Below, piece after piece: positions 1-12,276 of a DNA stretch of 40,422 nt. This DNA is from an uncultured Azospirillum sp. (GTDB lineage: Bacteria > Pseudomonadota > Alphaproteobacteria > Azospirillales > Azospirillaceae). Numbering within the stretch: the stretch's first letter is position 1; the number at the start of each line of letters is the position of its first letter. The notes under the pieces were generated by a model, which saw only the letters and a program-made list of their open reading frames with translations, had not been told where the DNA came from and ran no database searches. The position numbers and the translations under genes were made by a program. The stretch spans positions 1 through 40,422 of the forward strand of contig NZ_CAMLJP010000052.1 in NCBI RefSeq assembly GCF_946480385.1. Reading direction: 5' to 3'.

Positions 1-3000
1 TGGCGGCCTCTTCCCAATCCTTCGCCTTGGTCGCCTTCAGCGCGGCGATGGTGTTGACCCCACCGTCCTTCAGGCCACCCTGTTCAAGCAGCGTGTAGCG
101 CAGCAGATCGCCTATGGCGTTATCGCCCTTGCCGAACTCCTTGTAGGGCACCGAGCCGCCGACATAGAGGCCCTTGGCCGCGGTCTGGCCGATGCCGAAG
201 TCCTTGGTCAGCTTTCCGCCACCCGTGGCGGCAATCGAGAAGATGCCGGACAGGGCGGTGCCGAGCGCCTTGCCGGTTTCCGGGTCTCCTTCATTGTCGG
301 TGAGGATGTTGCCGAAAGTCGCCGATTTGCCGCCCGCATTGATCGTCACGTCTGCCGACGCCGTCTTACCGACAGTGGCCTTCTGCGTGCTGAGCAGTCC
401 CGTGATGAGGCCGACAGCCGCCGCGATGGCCAGACCAATGCCGCCGGTCATCGCGCCGATGCCCAAGAGCGAACCGCCAAGGTACGACGCCCCGGCTCCA
501 AGGGCCGCGCCGGACAGGCCGCCAACCGCCTTGCTGTTGGTTGCCGTGCCGAGTGCGCCACCCAGCATGCCGCCACCAAGACCAGCGGCGCCCGCTCCCA
601 AAAGGCCGGAAAGACCAGTCCCCGCCGCCACCTCGCCGGGGATTACCGAAGTGGCCCCGCCGCCGGTCAACATCCCGTTCGCCCCGGTCAGCACCGTGGT
701 GGGCATCTGAGATGCCGTACCGATGCCAAGGTAAGTAGCGCCGAACGTGTCAATGGCCGAACTGATGCCGCCGGACAGGCCCAGCTTGTCCATGGCCCAA
801 CCGCCGGCCTTTGACAGGGCGGTGTTGGTCAGGCTGCCGGTCAGGCCGTTGGTGGCGGCCCCCGCCGCACCGGCGGGCGCCTGGATGCCGAACAGCGACG
901 GCATCGCCCCAACCACCTGCGTAACGATGGGCAGGACGATATTGGCTTCCAGCGCCGCCACGGCGATCCGCTTGAAGATGGACTTGAAGACATCCACCAC
1001 GCTGGTGGCCTTGCCGGGGTCCATCAGTCGGTCGTACAGCGCTTCCGAAATGTCGCCGCTGATCTCCTTCGCCGTCGCCTGGACTTCTTTCTGGAAATTG
1101 ACGAGGGCCTGCGTGTCGGCGATCTGTTCCTGAAGGCGCACCCACTCCGCGATCTGTTCGGTCGTGGCGGACTTCGCCATCTGCGCGGCTTGCTGCTGGA
1201 TCTGGAGCGACCGGAGCGCGCGATCCCGATAGGGTTCAGCCTGCGCCATCAGCCCGAGTTCGGTGCGCACCATGTCCAATTCGGCACGGGCGGTGCGCAA
1301 CGCCTCTTCACCCTGCCGCGCCTTGCGGGCTTCGTCCGACCGCTTCGACAGGTGATCGTAATCGGCGGCCAGCTCGCGCAGCAGCTGGCCCAGCTCCGCC
1401 GCCCCTTCGGCTTCGGCCGCCTGTGCGGCACCCAGCAGCGCAGAGGTCTGAGCGGCAACCTCCGCCTGACGTTCCGCCTCCGCCTGCGCCGCCACCCCAT
1501 CGCGGGCGGCGTCGGCAACCTTCTCTTCCCACTCCACACGAGTCTGGAGGTCGGAAACGGACTTGGCCCCATCGGCGGCGGCCTGCGCGGCGGCCTGCAA
1601 AACCAGCTGGCTGGTCATCGCCTCGACGCTGACCGCGGCATTGCTGGCGGCGGCGGCCTGCGCTTCCATGGCCGCCTTGTGGCGGATGGTGTACTCCACC
1701 GCATCGGCGGCCGACGAGGTGAAGCGCAGGAGTTCCTGCGTGTACTGGGTGTTGAGAGAGGTTTCCCGTTCAACGGCGGAACTGCGGTCATTTTCAGCCG
1801 CAGTCATCTCCAGCAAGGCTTCCTTGCGGCGCGTTTCAACCAGCTTCAGCCGAGCGGTGGAGTCCAGGTTCCGCCGATCCGCCTCGCGGTTTGCCTCCAA
1901 TTCCGCGCGATTGAGGGCACGCTGTGCCGCGGTGCCCTTCATTGCGACGGACAGATCCTCATAGGCCTGACGCTCGTCGTTCAGCCACTTCTGGTTCGCC
2001 GCGCTCTGACCGATCTCCGGCGAAATGTCGTTGGCCGACCGGGTCAGCGGCGGGACGGTAGCCCTTCCGCCTGCCGGCCCGGTTTGCCGCTGGAGGTCGT
2101 AGTACCGCTGCTGGAGCGCCTGGAGCTGCTGACGGAGACTGTTCGCCACCGGCATGTCGCCATGCCCGCGCTCCACCATGCCAGCCAACTCGTCGCGCGT
2201 CCGATCCAACAACGCGCTGGTCTCCGCCAGATCGCGCGCCTTCTGGATTTCCTGCGGCATGCCGGCAACCCACCAGCTCATGCCCTTGAGCGCCTGCCCC
2301 AGACCGCGCATCAACGCTTGCGCCAGATCGCTGGAACCCAGCTTCTCAATGAGGTTGTCCCACTCCCGTTCCAGTTCGTGAAATGCATCCTTGGTATCGG
2401 ATCGCATTTGCTTTGCCGCGTCGCCGAATTGCCGCTGAAGCGCGCTCATGGCAGTGGCAAGCACTCCGGCTTGATCCCCATGACGCCCCATCAGGGCGAC
2501 ACTCTTCGCCTCTTCGACAAAGAGGAAACCCAATTCCTCGTCCAGCTTCCGCACACCAGCGGCACCGCCAGCAAAGGCGTCGGCCAACTTCGCCGCCCAC
2601 TCCTCCACGGCCCCACCTTTAACGGCCTGGACGTCCTGCGCAAGAGCGGCAAGCGACCGTACCAGGGCGGCATCGTTGATGCGGGAATTAAGGGAAACGG
2701 TGTGGACGGCCGACGTGGCATTCTCACGGCTAACGCCGCGGTCGTTGGCAATGTCCTGCGCCATCGACCGCAGGGCGGCGCCGGTGGCGTTGAGGTTGGG
2801 ATTGAGGGCGCGGAGACGGATGTCCATCTCCCGCACTTCCGCCGAGATCTGCGCCGCGCGGTTCAGCGCCACCGCGGCACCGACAGCCAGGGCACCGAAC
2901 CCCAGCGTCACCGCCGTCACCGGCGTCATCAGCAGCGACATGGCGCGCGACAGGCCGCCCACGGCCATCACCGCCTGCGGTCCCTGCTGGATGATCGGAT

Positions 3001-4168
3001 AGAACAGCCCTTGTCCCGACGCGACCTGAACGACGAAGTCCTGCGCCTGATAGGACAGGTTCGCCATCTCGTGCGCGGCCAGACCGGACATCCGGCCCAT
3101 CGTCGCGGCGCCGCTGTTGGTGGCGACCATCTCGGCACGCACGCGAGCCAACGCACGCTCCAGCGCCATCGTCTCTTCGCCGGTGCGGGCGAAGGGGCGC
3201 AGCGCTTCCAGCCGCAGCAACTCGGCTTCCAGCCTTTCGCCTTCGGTCCTCGTCCGGGCGATGATCTGCGCCAGTTGCCCCTGCGCCGCCACCGCGGCGC
3301 GGGCCGCATCGGTGGACTGCGCGATCTCGGTTTCGGTCGCCTCGATGGCGCGGGTGAGTGCCTGTGCTTCCGGGATCGACTGCGCGAAGGGGCGCAGGGC
3401 ACGCAACTCCTCCAGGCGGGCGCGCAGCCGCTCCGCCGGCGTCGCCGTTTCCACCATGAGGGCAGCCAGCCGGGACTGCGCCGCCGCCGCGTCGCGGGCG
3501 GCTTCGCTGTGGCCCTCAAGGGCAGTCTCGGTGGACGTGATCGCGCGGGTCAGCGCGTCGGCCTCCGCCTCGGTGGTGGCGAAGGGGCGGAGGGCGGCCA
3601 GTTCGGTCAGCCGTCCCTGAAGGCGTTCCACCGGAGTGCGGGTTTCGTCGATCAGCGCCGCCAGCCGGGCCTGCGCGGATGCGGCCTGCCGGGCGGCTTC
3701 GCTGTGGCCCTCCAGGGCGGCTTCGGCCGCCGTGATGGCGTGGAACAGCGCATTGGCCTCTTCGGCCGACGTGGCGAAGGGGCGGAGACGCTCCAGCTCC
3801 GCCAGCGTCGCCTGAAGGCGTTCCACCGGCGTCCGGGTCTTCTCGACCAGATCGGCCAGCCGCTCCTGCGCCGCTGCCGCCGTGCGCGCCTCGTCCGAAT
3901 GAGAGGCGATGGCGCGATCCAGTTCGGCCGTGGCGCGGGCAAGCGCGCGGGCTTGTTCGGCCGTGCTGGCGAACGGCGCCAGCGTCGCCAGCTCCGCCAA
4001 CCGGGCCTGCAACCGCTCCACCGGCGTGGCAGTCTGGGTGACGAGTTGGGCAAGCCGGCGCTGGGCATCGCCCATCTCATCCAGATTGTCGCTCACCCGC
4101 CGGATGGAATTGACCAGTTCGGCCGTACCATCCGCCCGGAGCCGGAGAACCAGGGTCATGTCGGTCAT
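1..4168 (-). CDS. Phage tail tape measure protein (C-terminus beyond window)
   Basis: An open frame of 1389 codons reads without a stop to the window edge, which fits a tape measure protein that sets tail length and is later ejected. The start ATG (4166-4168) overlaps the upstream stop in an ATGA. Roughly residues 20-350 are built from 65-residue repeats with a conserved L-R-P-F-A core and alanine/glutamate-rich helical surroundings. After this come hydrophobic stretches around residues 380-440, then a long Ala/Gln/Glu-rich coiled-coil region. A Gly/Ala-rich segment (about residues 1110-1280) resembles the membrane-active part of tape measures. Position between the tail chaperones and the window edge supports the call. 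The C-terminal end and total length cannot be seen. Confidence 0.88.
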   Translation of the reverse strand, partial: MTDMTLVLRLRADGTAELVNSIRRVSDNLDEMGDAQRRLAQLVTQTATPVERLQARLAELATLAPFASTAEQARALARATAELDRAIASHSDEARTAAAAQERLADLVEKTRTPVERLQATLAELERLRPFATSAEEANALFHAITAAEAALEGHSEAARQAASAQARLAALIDETRTPVERLQGRLTELAALRPFATTEAEADALTRAITSTETALEGHSEAARDAAAAQSRLAALMVETATPAERLRARLEELRALRPFAQSIPEAQALTRAIEATETEIAQSTDAARAAVAAQGQLAQIIARTRTEGERLEAELLRLEALRPFARTGEETMALERALARVRAEMVATNSGAATMGRMSGLAAHEMANLSYQAQDFVVQVASGQGLFYPIIQQGPQAVMAVGGLSRAMSLLMTPVTAVTLGFGALAVGAAVALNRAAQISAEVREMDIRLRALNPNLNATGAALRSMAQDIANDRGVSRENATSAVHTVSLNSRINDAALVRSLAALAQDVQAVKGGAVEEWAAKLADAFAGGAAGVRKLDEELGFLFVEEAKSVALMGRHGDQAGVLATAMSALQRQFGDAAKQMRSDTKDAFHELEREWDNLIEKLGSSDLAQALMRGLGQALKGMSWWVAGMPQEIQKARDLAETSALLDRTRDELAGMVERGHGDMPVANSLRQQLQALQQRYYDLQRQTGPAGGRATVPPLTRSANDISPEIGQSAANQKWLNDERQAYEDLSVAMKGTAAQRALNRAELEANREADRRNLDSTARLKLVETRRKEALLEMTAAENDRSSAVERETSLNTQYTQELLRFTSSAADAVEYTIRHKAAMEAQAAAASNAAVSVEAMTSQLVLQAAAQAAADGAKSVSDLQTRVEWEEKVADAARDGVAAQAEAERQAEVAAQTSALLGAAQAAEAEGAAELGQLLRELAADYDHLSKRSDEARKARQGEEALRTARAELDMVRTELGLMAQAEPYRDRALRSLQIQQQAAQMAKSATTEQIAEWVRLQEQIADTQALVNFQKEVQATAKEISGDISEALYDRLMDPGKATSVVDVFKSIFKRIAVAALEANIVLPIVTQVVGAMPSLFGIQAPAGAAGAATNGLTGSLTNTALSKAGGWAMDKLGLSGGISSAIDTFGATYLGIGTASQMPTTVLTGANGMLTGGGATSVIPGEVAAGTGLSGLLGAGAAGLGGGMLGGALGTATNSKAVGGLSGAALGAGASYLGGSLLGIGAMTGGIGLAIAAAVGLITGLLSTQKATVGKTASADVTINAGGKSATFGNILTDNEGDPETGKALGTALSGIFSIAATGGGKLTKDFGIGQTAAKGLYVGGSVPYKEFGKGDNAIGDLLRYTLLEQGGLKDGGVNTIAALKATKAKDWEEAA
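3189..3980 (-). repeat. Five in-frame 195-bp (65-residue) repeats in the tape measure gene
   Basis: On the plus strand the core GCGAAGGGGCG, or a close variant, starts at 3189, 3384, 3579, 3774 and 3969, exactly 195 nt apart each time. On the coding strand each encodes the L-R-P-F-A core, or L-A-P-F-A in the first copy, preceded by E-R-L-Q/E and a run of leucine/alanine heptads. The repeats are diverged at the DNA level but constant in length, as expected for helical repeats under selection for spacing. Confidence 0.85.
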
Positions 4169-4886
4169 TGCGGCCGTTCCCTCTCCAGGCGTTCCTGCCA
4201 GACTTCAAGCGCGACCCGTTCCATGTCGCGGATGTCGCCGAACAGCTCGGGGGTGGTGGTGATGCCCATCAGGGCGGCGGTCGGGGCGATGGCGCCGTAG
4301 TCCAGGCCGGTGGCCTGACCGTCCAGGCCGGCGCGGCGCCACTGGGTGCCCAGCGCCAGGAAGAGGTCCAGCGCCGGGCGGTTCTCCGGCCAGACGACAT
4401 AGGGCGCGTCGTCGGCCGGGTCCTCGTCACCGACGACGCCGAAGAAGCCTTCCGCGTCGTCCCGGTTGTCCTCACCCCGCCCGGCGCCGCCCGATGCCCA
4501 CAGCCGGACGGCGCCTTTCAGTTTCCCTTGCGGGCCTTGCCGTTGACGCCTTCGAAATAGGCGTCGATGAAGGCGGAGCGCACATAGGGGATGGCGATCA
4601 GCTTCAACAGGTTCTCGTCGGTGAACTCGAAATCCGGGCCGTTCTTGTCCCCCGTTTTGATGCCCTTCCAGCCGACCACCACCTGTTCCAGGACGAGGCG
4701 GGTGTCGTCGCAAATCTCTCCGGCGGAGCGGGCCGACAGGGCGCGGGCGGTGACCTCCGTCACGAACTCCGGCGGCATGACCTTGAACTCCACCTCCACC
4801 TCCTTGGCGACCTTGCGGAAGCCTTCGGTCGGGTCGTAGATGCGGGCCTTGTTCCAGAAGGTGTTTTCCTCGTTGAAGACGAACAT
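4165..4886 (-). CDS. Tail assembly chaperone fusion (G-T type), made by -1 frameshift; DUF1799-like C-terminus
   Basis: The upstream chaperone frame and the following frame appear joined by -1 ribosomal slippage at GGGAAAC (4521-4527). The fusion would be 122 residues from the first frame plus 118 from the second, 240 in all, ending at 4165 in an ATGA overlap with the tape measure. The second part contains W-P-E-N-R-P-A-L, an F-L-A-L-x-T-Q-W motif and G-L-D-Y, typical of DUF1799 proteins that sit just before the tape measure in Mu-like siphophages. No well-placed start with a ribosome binding site is evident for an independent second gene. In lambda the equivalent GT protein recruits tail tube subunits onto the tape measure. 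Frameshifting is inferred from the signal, not measured. Confidence 0.8.
4483..4527 (-). promoter_or_regulatory. Programmed -1 frameshift signal: slippery heptamer plus hairpin
   Basis: On the minus strand the heptamer G GGA AAC (4527-4521) is in the X XXY YYZ register and directly precedes the TGA stop. After a 5-nt spacer (TGAAA) comes a 10-bp stem: arm 4515-4506 (GGCGCCGTCC) pairs with 4492-4483 (GGGCGGCGCC) with a single G-U wobble and a 13-nt loop. Heptamer class, register, spacer length and a strong downstream stem all fit known bacterial and phage -1 frameshift cassettes. Confidence 0.85.
4518..4886 (-). CDS. Tail assembly chaperone (G-type, unshifted product)
   Basis: A 122-residue acidic protein is encoded between the tail tube and the tape measure, where siphophages carry the chaperone gene. 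It starts M-F-V-F-N-E and ends with K-A-R-K-G-N just before TGA. The last two sense codons and the preceding G form the slippery heptamer GGGAAAC. Most ribosomes should stop here and give the short form, while a minority make the longer fusion. I recognise the position and the frameshift architecture rather than a named family. It should coat or fold the tape measure during tail assembly and be absent from the virion. Confidence 0.8.
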   Translation of the reverse strand: MFVFNEENTFWNKARIYDPTEGFRKVAKEVEVEFKVMPPEFVTEVTARALSARSAGEICDDTRLVLEQVVVGWKGIKTGDKNGPDFEFTDENLLKLIAIPYVRSAFIDAYFEGVNGKARKGN

Positions 4887-4915: not shown

Positions 4916-6163
4916 TCAGCGGGCGGTGAGGGTGAAATCGTCGTTGCCGGCGTCGGACGGCAGCAAGGTCAGGGTGGCGGAGCACGCCACTTCCTCGCCG
5001 TCCCGTTCCTGTTTCGGCTCGGTGATCTGGACGCGCAGGGCGGACAGGTCGACGACGTTGCCGGCGGCGGTGCCATGGACGATGCGCAGGGCGCCGGTCA
5101 GGTCGTCGTGAGCGGCCATCTCCACGTCCCAGTCGGCCAGCTTCGGATAGCGGAACTTGATGCTGGCCGTCGTGCCCGGCCGCGCCAGGATCACTTCGGC
5201 CTGATTGGGCCGGTCCTTGTACTCGAAGCTGTTCCCCAGATTGACCTCCAGGGACGTCAGCACGATGTCGACGCCGAACAGCGAAGCGACCGGGGTGTTG
5301 TCCTTCGACAGCACGAGACCCTTGGTGAAGCCGGCCGGCGCCGGGGTCGGCGGCGACTGGTCCAGCGGGCGTTCCCACAGCCCCTTGGTGTCGAAACTGA
5401 TCTTCGGCACGTCCTTCTCCGTGAAGGACAGGGTGGCGTTGCCGCGCGTGCCCCGCTGGCGATAGAGGATGCCGTCCTTGAAGAAGTAGATGCTGCCCGC
5501 CTCGAAATCGTCCGAAACGGGGGTGTAGCGGGTCAGCGCCGCCCCCAGCGCGATTGTCCAGCTGTCGCCGACCGCCAGAGCCGTACCCACGGTCGGCACG
5601 ATGGCGGCTCCGCCCGGCAGAGCCAGCGGCGTCGCGTCCGTCACCGTGACGTCGGTGACATTGTAGGCGGCGACGCCGTCCACCGCCGGGGCGGCGACGG
5701 TCACCTTGGCGGCGCCGCTGGCACCGGCGGTGGTGCAGGTGATGGTGACGACGCGGTCGACCGTGCCGGCATAGGCGGTGCCCATGGTGTAGGTCAGCGT
5801 CCCGACATTGCCGGCGGCCGGCGTGCCCGGCGACGCCTGCACCGTCGACGCGGCCGGGCGGATCGCCTCCCCCAGACCGACGCAACGCAGCAACGGGCTG
5901 TAGCCGGGGACGATGCCGGCGGTGCCCGATCCGGACAGTTCGCAGGCGAACTTGGACGAGCGGTGGACACCGACGTGGGTCTTCTCGCTGGCGCCCATGA
6001 AGCCGCGGACATAGCCGCGGTCGATCACCTGTCCGTCCAGCGGCACGCAGCTGGCGTCCTTGATCCGGATGGCATGGGCGCCGGTCGGGGCGGCATCGGT
6101 GCCATAGGTGGTCTCCACCTCAGCCAGAACGGTGGTCTTGCGCCAGAACAACGGGCCGGACAT
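4916..6163 (-). CDS. Phage tail tube protein
   Basis: This 415-residue protein lies directly upstream of the tail chaperones, the usual place of the tube subunit. The N-terminus (W-R-K-T-T-V-L-A-E-V-E-T-T-Y-G-T-D) is typical of phage tube proteins of Mu-like siphophages. Residues of about 110-210 are rich in Thr, Ala, Gly and Val and look like an inserted beta-sandwich domain exposed on the tail. The rest alternates short beta segments. The length exceeds simple tube proteins of about 200-250 residues, in line with an insertion. A GGAG lies 8 nt before the ATG. The single tube gene without a sheath partner supports a non-contractile tail. Confidence 0.8.
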   Translation of the reverse strand: MSGPLFWRKTTVLAEVETTYGTDAAPTGAHAIRIKDASCVPLDGQVIDRGYVRGFMGASEKTHVGVHRSSKFACELSGSGTAGIVPGYSPLLRCVGLGEAIRPAASTVQASPGTPAAGNVGTLTYTMGTAYAGTVDRVVTITCTTAGASGAAKVTVAAPAVDGVAAYNVTDVTVTDATPLALPGGAAIVPTVGTALAVGDSWTIALGAALTRYTPVSDDFEAGSIYFFKDGILYRQRGTRGNATLSFTEKDVPKISFDTKGLWERPLDQSPPTPAPAGFTKGLVLSKDNTPVASLFGVDIVLTSLEVNLGNSFEYKDRPNQAEVILARPGTTASIKFRYPKLADWDVEMAAHDDLTGALRIVHGTAAGNVVDLSALRVQITEPKQERDGEEVACSATLTLLPSDAGNDDFTLTAR

Positions 6164-10969: not shown

Positions 10970-12193
10970 CTACCCCTCTCCGCGGCGGAACAGCAGCGCA
11001 CCGGTGCGTTGACGATCCAGGTAGCCGGCGCGTTCCGGCGCAAAGCTGGTGACGCCGATCCAGCCCTTCCGCGACCATTCGAACACGGTGTAGAGACCGG
11101 CGCCATCGGGCAGCTCCACCCGCTTGATGTAGCGGCGGCGCAGCACCGGCTCCCCTTCGACCTTCGCCCATGTCGCCCAGACCTCGTCGGGATCGCGCAA
11201 CGCATCGGCCGCCAGCAGCAGATAGCGCTCACGCCCCCACTTGGTGACCTTCAGCTTGCCCGCGCCCGTTTCGAAGAGTGTACGGCCGACCGCCAGCAAC
11301 GTGCCAGTGACGTCGCGGAAGGGAGCGGGCCAATCGGGCGTCGCGCCGAACTCGTCCAGGAAGCGGTTGACGTATTCCTCCGGCTCCAGGTCGTCGGGCA
11401 ACAAACGGTCGGCCGGCACCGGCGCCGGGTCGGGCAGCGGCGGCAGATCGGCCGGGCGGGACTGGACGTCCGGTTCATAGTCCGGCAGAGGCTCCTGCAA
11501 TTCGGGCGGCACCGCCCCGCGCAACCAAGCCCGGCCGACGTTGTAGCCGAAGCCGGTGTCGATGCCCTCCGGCGTCGGCCACACCTCCTTGGAGCCGTCC
11601 GCCAGTGTCACCAGCCGGTTCTCCAAGGCGGTGGCGGGCGCCTGTTCGGACACGCTCCAGCCATAGCGCTCCAGATCGGCGGCCGACACGGACTGGACGG
11701 TGCAGCGGCAGTTCCAGCCGTTGGGCGGGTTGTGGGTGTCCCACCACGGGTCGTCGGCCGGCAGGATGGTGCCATGCCACTCCCGGTGCAGCGGCCGGGT
11801 ACGGCTGTCCAGGATGGCGGAATAGCGGACATAGGGCCGGTCGGCCTTGACCCGGTCGATCTGCGCCCATTTCCCGGCGGCGCGGGCGGTGCGCAGGTTG
11901 GTGTTGTAGATCACCGCCGACCGCCAGCCGCGGGTGCCGTTGTAGCTCCAGCCATGGGTGGCGACGATGCGGTCGAAGTCCTTGCGGAAGTCGGTCAGCG
12001 TCGTCCCATCGGCAATCGCGCGGTCGACCGCCTTGCGGAAGTCCTCCAGCAGCGCGGCAGACGTGGCACCGGCGACGGCGAAGGCGCGGGCGTGTGCGCC
12101 TTCCTTCAGGTCGGTCCAGGCCCGGCTGGGCAGCTTGACCTTGCGGCGGAAGAAGGTGATTGCTTCGTCGAAGGGCAAGGGACCGTCAGACAC
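10970..12193 (-). CDS. MuF head morphogenesis protein (gp30-like) with C-terminal PBECR2-type nuclease domain
   Basis: The N-terminal part (about residues 1-200) is a MuF domain: F-F-R-R-K-V-K-L-P, then Y-N-T-N-L-R-T-A-R-A-A-G, D-S-R-T-R-P-L-H, H-G-T and the closing N-P-P-N-G-W-N-C-R-C. After a proline-rich linker (residues 230-270) the last 110 residues match PBECR2, a nuclease-like toxin domain known as a MuF fusion: K-W-G-R-E-R-Y-L, D-P-D-E-V-W, L-R-R-R-Y-I, G-W-I-G-V-T-S-F and Y-L-D-R-Q-R-T-G-A-L-L. The chosen GTG start (12191-12193) has GGAGG 5 nt upstream. An ATG at 12208 and a TTG at 12214 are alternatives. MuF proteins are minor capsid proteins that can be ejected with DNA. No obvious immunity gene follows. 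Confidence 0.87.
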   Translation of the reverse strand: MSDGPLPFDEAITFFRRKVKLPSRAWTDLKEGAHARAFAVAGATSAALLEDFRKAVDRAIADGTTLTDFRKDFDRIVATHGWSYNGTRGWRSAVIYNTNLRTARAAGKWAQIDRVKADRPYVRYSAILDSRTRPLHREWHGTILPADDPWWDTHNPPNGWNCRCTVQSVSAADLERYGWSVSEQAPATALENRLVTLADGSKEVWPTPEGIDTGFGYNVGRAWLRGAVPPELQEPLPDYEPDVQSRPADLPPLPDPAPVPADRLLPDDLEPEEYVNRFLDEFGATPDWPAPFRDVTGTLLAVGRTLFETGAGKLKVTKWGRERYLLLAADALRDPDEVWATWAKVEGEPVLRRRYIKRVELPDGAGLYTVFEWSRKGWIGVTSFAPERAGYLDRQRTGALLFRRGEG

Positions 12194-12276
12194 GGACGCC
12201 TCCGGCATTGCCAATCACCGATGAAAAGGGTTGATTTATTCTTTGATGAGACCAACCAAAAGGATGCTTCCCAGCA

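Follow-up and report, generated by a model that had tools for sequence, protein, structure and literature searches.

Organisation of the tail gene junction

The window analysed here, a stretch of 40,422 nucleotides from an uncultured Azospirillum sp., belongs to a Mu-like phage or prophage whose tail genes are of siphovirus type. Read leftwards on the minus strand, genes for Portal_Mu, Phage_Mu_F, the Phage_cap_E major head protein, Mu Gp36 and Phage_tail_S are followed by a tail terminator, a probable tail tube gene, the gene G, a DUF1799 frame and the tape measure gene. A PBECR2 nuclease-like domain was observed at the C-terminus of a Phage_Mu_F-like protein (10970-12214, minus strand; E 4e-29). 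Two overlapping frames are located just upstream of the tape measure gene, and the ATG of this gene overlaps the stop codon of the second frame, which is hereafter called T. The elements of the region are as follows.

4916..6163, minus strand: probable tail tube gene, named by position; phrog_290 'minor tail protein', E 4e-15
4518..4886, minus strand: G, first-frame tail assembly chaperone, an ORF of 122 aa with ATG start and TGA stop; phrog_569, E 6e-11
4521..4527, minus strand: slippery heptamer G_GGA_AAC, in register and abutting the G stop
4516..4520, minus strand: spacer TGAAA, 5 nt, which includes the G stop codon
4506..4515, minus strand: 5´ arm of the putative stimulatory hairpin
4483..4492, minus strand: 3´ arm of the hairpin, completing a 10-bp stem with one G-U pair
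4165..4521, minus strand: T frame (-1), 118 aa plus stop, translated from the CTG that would follow the slip
4498..4521, minus strand: LKGAVRLW, the window copy of the L-x-x-A-A-R-x-W motif that opens T
4204..4422, minus strand: DUF1799 domain (PF08809), T residues 34-106; 61.6 bits against a curated cut-off of 26, E 8.5e-17
1..4168, minus strand: tape measure gene, which exceeds the window edge (open ORF of 1389 aa; TMP_2, E 2e-21)

A Pfam search with the product of 4916..6163 returned nothing above cut-off. G has an AAGGA upstream of its ATG and terminates with AAG GGA AAC TGA, the stop codon occupying 4520..4518. The hairpin loop spans 13 nt, and three further pairs form inside the loop in the computed fold. 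The original prediction had placed GGGAAAC in register at the end of the first frame, with a spacer of 5 nt and then a stem of 10 bp containing one G-U pair, and each of these elements was found where it had been described; the DUF1799-like frame likewise lies in -1, as its PF08809 match attests.

Within the 12 minus-strand genes, an in-register XXXYYYZ heptamer (Y = A or T) occurs at 2 of 4232 codon steps, the second being a GGGTTTC within the tape measure gene. A 10-bp stem 3-9 nt downstream occurs at 48 of 4027 in-register positions. Chance is ruled out for the combination of heptamer and stem at a gene end beside a -1 frame with a known domain. The 38 nt of spacer and hairpin fold with -24.9 kcal/mol, compared with -15.5 ± 2.5 for 500 dinucleotide shuffles (z -3.8). 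Against shuffles that preserve the T protein and its codons, the stem of the window is not significant (z -1.2; 12 of 100 were equally stable).

Identity of the two frames

The assignment of the first frame as a tail assembly chaperone comes from relatives of G. The G protein of the window matches PF08748 (Phage_TAC_4) weakly, at 17 bits and below the curated cut-off of 21.1, and PF08748 matches 28 of 49 aligned G relatives at E ≤ 0.01. A similar proportion (27 of 49) is matched by phrog_313, 'Tail assembly chaperone', at the same threshold. The families phrog_569 (G) and phrog_680 (DUF1799) are both titled 'tail length tape measure protein', despite adjoining the tape measure gene, and many RefSeq phage records give the small G and DUF1799 proteins this title.

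In the predicted structure of T, residues 2-9 form a helix (pLDDT 94 over residues 1-10), followed by a less certain linker and then a well-predicted core. The best named structural matches of this model are 'tape measure chaperone' proteins, from E 0.002. A function assigned from the fold was rejected, as no convincing PDB match was obtained for T (best E 1.9) or G (best E 1.8); PDB sequence searches also gave weak matches only.

Collection of related loci

The named close homologues of G are Azospirillum proteins, and the close homologues were recovered as protein sequences only. A G profile found no close-relative DNA in genome contigs, no match in plasmids, three loci in viral contigs (54, 35 and 32% identity) and remote matches in 3 of 82 genomes of one family; one of the latter (L192) carries GGGAAAC-TGA and stands outside the counts below.

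In total, 189 loci (L001-L189; 190 with the window) were collected. Viral contigs contributed 3 + 80, the 80 being the best 80 of 280, and genome contigs contributed 22. Among 385 alphaproteobacterial genomes, the G-profile search yielded 11 loci, and a PF08809 search, which matched 18 genomes, yielded 20. The PF08809 search of 398 Pseudomonadota genomes matched 39 places in 30 genomes; 30 of these places became loci, 29 of them new and one a duplicate of an earlier locus. Finally, 24 annotated phage or plasmid stretches were added. A DUF1799 profile match is present in 189 of the 190, including the window. The exception (L127) has a G that ends A AAA AAC TAA. Two loci with weak DUF1799 scores (L177 and L122) were retained. 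Dereplication at 80% nucleotide identity gave 116 clusters, which are not fully independent because loci were chosen by DUF1799 or G similarity and those from viral contigs include only the best 80 of 280.

In three loci, non-tail genes follow DUF1799 (L112, phage PS-1; L182, YMC11/02/R656; L188, an Arsenophonus plasmid), namely genes for partition or anti-repressor functions, superinfection immunity and DNA-binding regulators. They sit between DUF1799 and the tape measure gene in L182 and L188, and L112 has no tape measure gene within the stretch examined.

An in-register heptamer at the end of G in nearly all loci examined

A locus was scored positive when an upstream ORF of 80 codons or more was followed by DUF1799 in -1, with an in-register XXXYYYZ at most 120 nt from the stop. 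This arrangement, seen in the window, was found in 113 of 116 clusters, with AAAAAAC in 77, GGGAAAC in 34 and AAAAAAG in 2. The same scan yielded 4 and 29 matches in the two remaining registers, over similar numbers of positions. Loss of the heptamer in relatives, which the original prediction had raised as a challenge to itself, is not the pattern observed. Three clusters failed the filter. L022 has AAAAAAC, its G being interrupted by the contig end, and was restored. In L118 (with L133), an AAAAAAT abutting TGA was read by eye; it was missed because a repeat-rich linker placed the heptamer out of range. In L118 and L133, most of the T-frame linker that separates the slip from the DUF1799 core is made up of short tandem repeats with ENCLQ-type units. 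Only L116 (Klebsiella phage JVSB2) has no XXXYYYZ heptamer, carrying C_CAA_AAG alone. It may slip at this site; PMC5009743 mentions C_CA(A) as a shift site for IS3.

Exclusion of L116 and L118 left a set of 114 clusters for the folding, motif, start codon and anchoring counts. In this set, AAAAAAC is present in 78 loci and GGGAAAC in 34, the window included. The heptamer abuts the G stop in 93 of the 114; in 16 of the other 21, a Leu codon still follows the heptamer directly. Among close G proteins aligned with that of the window, 10 of 11, the window included, end in ...KGN.

Runs of A can cause RNA polymerase slippage, and the AAAAAAC of 78 of 114 loci would offer such a run, in which case G and DUF1799 would be joined in the transcript rather than by the ribosome. 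This explanation appears extremely unlikely, as 34 of 114 loci, including the window, use GGGAAAC and contain no long homopolymer, and the strict codon register together with a downstream hairpin fits tandem tRNA slippage.

RNA folding downstream of the heptamer

A stimulatory structure is a frequent rather than an obligatory companion of such sites, and one is supported here on the set of loci. The stem arms lie at varying distances among relatives, and the stem was assessed by a folding profile and by synonymous shuffles. Across the 114 loci, folding peaks just 3´ of the heptamer: the mean energy of 45-nt segments has minima of -19.4 at 0 and -20.0 at +5 after the heptamer, and lies at about -10 to -13 more than 60 nt away. 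Compared with synonymous-codon shuffles, the set has a mean z of -1.11, with 41 of 114 loci at p ≤ 0.05 (Wilcoxon 7e-11), versus a mean z of -0.19 for a control segment. In 36 of 114 loci, the stem did not exceed the synonymous shuffles in stability (z above -0.5).

T is conserved directly from the slip site

The -1 frame directly after the slip opens with L-x-x-A-A-R-x-W in the 114 loci, with Leu in 109, the two Ala at positions 4 and 5 in 90 and 80, Arg6 in 69 and Trp8 in 67. The information in the Leu codon and the two Ala codons lies mainly at codon positions 1 and 2. In 58 of 114 loci, no ATG, GTG or TTG is present between the preceding stop of the DUF1799 frame and T codon 9; ordinary initiation cannot reach the conserved stretch in these loci because start codons are absent there. 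CTG is also absent from this interval in 20 of 114.

These counts bear on the possibility that DUF1799 is an independent gene, which is translated from its own start or by re-initiation past the G stop (at the CTG in C-TGA, for instance), with an incidental heptamer. Annotation favours such a gene, DUF1799 being a separate CDS in 23 of 24 opened records, as the original prediction had anticipated; in Rhodobacter phage RC1 (L111), the annotated start is the CTG at the slip (position 2492). Potential starts are also available further downstream. An ATG, GTG or TTG lies between the slip and the core in 89 of 114 loci, and in 21 of 114 a start with an SD-like tetramer lies in this interval, from which T would lose its first helix. 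However, 58 of 114 loci have no ATG, GTG or TTG ahead of the end of the motif, and 20 of 114 lack CTG there as well. Re-initiation at CTG is further opposed by the stop codons: TAA or TAG is used in 34 of the 93 loci in which the heptamer abuts the stop, and therefore no CTG is formed at the slip. An independent gene also leaves the in-register heptamer of 113 of 116 clusters unexplained. When the interval from the preceding stop to T codon 9 was scanned for starts with an SD-like tetramer, 5 of 114 loci had one, at unrelated places; the test is not very sensitive, recovering the ATG and SD of G itself in only 63 of 114. The conserved independent start and ribosome binding site that the original prediction had named as a counter-indication was not encountered. 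In the window, the first ATG, GTG or TTG after the slip is codon 85 of 119, within the domain. Within G, the DUF1799 frame does contain a TTG (position 4713) that is preceded by GGAG at a distance of four bases; the original description of this frame as having no good start holds after the slip and is not absolute upstream of it. Taken together, an independently initiated DUF1799 gene is considered very unlikely.

In the RC1 record, the CTG resembles a start codon only through the heptamer and the stop. A 118-aa protein that matches the window T frame (P0001) begins with M at the same slip CTG codon.

Proposed frameshift

The preferred interpretation, which we hold to be very probably correct, is a programmed -1 ribosomal frameshift through which a single start gives rise to two tail assembly chaperones. 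The majority of ribosomes would halt at the TGA and release G. On G_GGA_AAC, a minority, aided by the hairpin, would move back by one base, decode CTG instead of the TGA and continue through DUF1799 to give GT, the minor product. If lambda is a guide, the tape measure protein would be coated by many copies of G and few of GT, the T domain would recruit tail tube subunits, and both chaperones would depart before the tail matures. The layout, the register, the conservation, the folding signal and the coding conservation ahead of start codons are observed, whereas the slippage, its rate and these protein contacts are inferred. Counted against slippage is a report in PMC5009743 that, in E. coli, A_AAA_AAC shifts far less readily than A_AAA_AAG.

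Comparison with known systems

Frameshifting of G/GT type is already established, and the novelty of the present observations is modest. In lambda, whose mechanism is summarised in PMC5009743, a -1 slip also occurs on a heptamer that is in register and close to the end of G, between the major tail and tape measure genes. In contrast to the AAC-ended heptamer of the window, which abuts the stop, the lambda heptamer is GGGAAAG and lies 22 nt upstream of the stop. Sequence similarity to lambda G and T was not detected: profile scores for DUF1799 versus lambda T and for the window G versus lambda G are about 0 bits or below, with an hhalign probability of 0.1%. The pair of the window would work like lambda G/GT, a functional analogy that the sequences do not extend to homology.

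Closer parallels are found in other phages. In Citrobacter phage Stevie, the T1-like 'tape measure chaperone', for which a frameshift is stated in PMC4319613, has a DUF1799 match (i-E 5e-17) in the -1 part of its joined CDS. Stevie has AAAAAAC followed by TAA rather than the GGGAAAC of the window, and is a lytic enterobacterial phage that is not Mu-like. The 'pre-tape measure frameshift protein' of Serratia phage Smarc2, also a phage of another type with AAAAAAC, is a GenBank join of G and the DUF1799 part. A translational frameshift in tape measure chaperones is also mentioned in the genome announcement of Solomon, and the U136B announcement mentions one that is made via a slippery sequence. 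Because the Stevie and Smarc2 records join the two frames, the reading of DUF1799 with G is not new in annotation practice, and the premise that DUF1799 is annotated separately requires this qualification.

In Burkholderia phage KL1, GGGAAAC directly before TGA and a predicted stem-loop are described for gp18/gp19 (PMC3483164). This junction (L191, near 4459) is shared with the window and its CDS is joined. Unlike the window, KL1 gave no DUF1799 profile match in a 14-kb stretch and has an extra gene ahead of the tape measure gene. The GGGAAAC-TGA layout is not confined to DUF1799 phages. The head genes of the window (Portal_Mu, Phage_Mu_F and Mu Gp36) are of Mu type; for Mu gp41/gp42, a -2 frameshift is reported instead (PMC4378225, PMC2628397). 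For phages KS10 and RcZahn, the published accounts report that no such frameshift was found (PMC2628397, PMC8601537).

The separate DUF1799 CDSs are named 'hypothetical protein', 'tail length tape measure protein', 'tape measure chaperone' or 'DUF1799 domain-containing protein', and 13 of 60 phage rows among the matches listed have no annotated feature beneath the DUF1799 match. Among the papers searched, DUF1799 occurs in one, which lists it as its own gene and does not use the word 'frameshift' in its main text, and PF08809 occurs in none. Within this search, no printed statement was found that equates the PF08809 family as a whole with the T domain. The original prediction that DUF1799 is the T half of a G/GT pair is supported, and the rule reaches far beyond the single phage group to which it had been applied.

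A multiply coded junction

AAC followed by TGA, TAA or TAG reads as CTG or CTA in the T frame. Heptamers that end in AAC (A_AAA_AAC or G_GGA_AAC) account for 112 of 114 sites. Elsewhere in the same loci, AAG-ended heptamers are at least as common (AAAAAAG and GGGAAAG 78, AAAAAAC and GGGAAAC 62); the enrichment of AAC at the junction has a Fisher p of 1e-23, computed with counts of 111 versus 2. The last base of the heptamer may be fixed by the T frame, since T nearly always starts with Leu.

A broader proposal, which we offer tentatively and rate somewhat short of probable, is that DUF1799 never stands as a free gene and that all members of the family supply the -1-frame half of a tail chaperone. 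The junction would be multiply coded, with the same bases serving as the end of the heptamer, as the beginning of the G stop and as the Leu codon with which T almost always opens. If this is true, the Leu of the T frame excludes G at the heptamer end, which would explain AAC-ended over AAG-ended sites, and slippage would stay low at these sites. Published descriptions place AAC-ended sites touching or near the stop in KL1, Loki and phiCbK, and an AAC-ended site is published for Colossus. The Leu of DUF1799 is not the whole reason for AAC because KL1 is AAC-ended and had no DUF1799 match in the stretch searched.

Implications

No new mechanism is added by these observations. They assign a likely function to a Pfam family labelled 'unknown function' and correct its gene model. 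If the model is right, many phage and prophage records divide one protein in two or begin its second part too late, dropping a conserved helix. More than 100 junctions that follow one site rule would also form a resource on how stop adjacency and hairpins tune low-level frameshifting.
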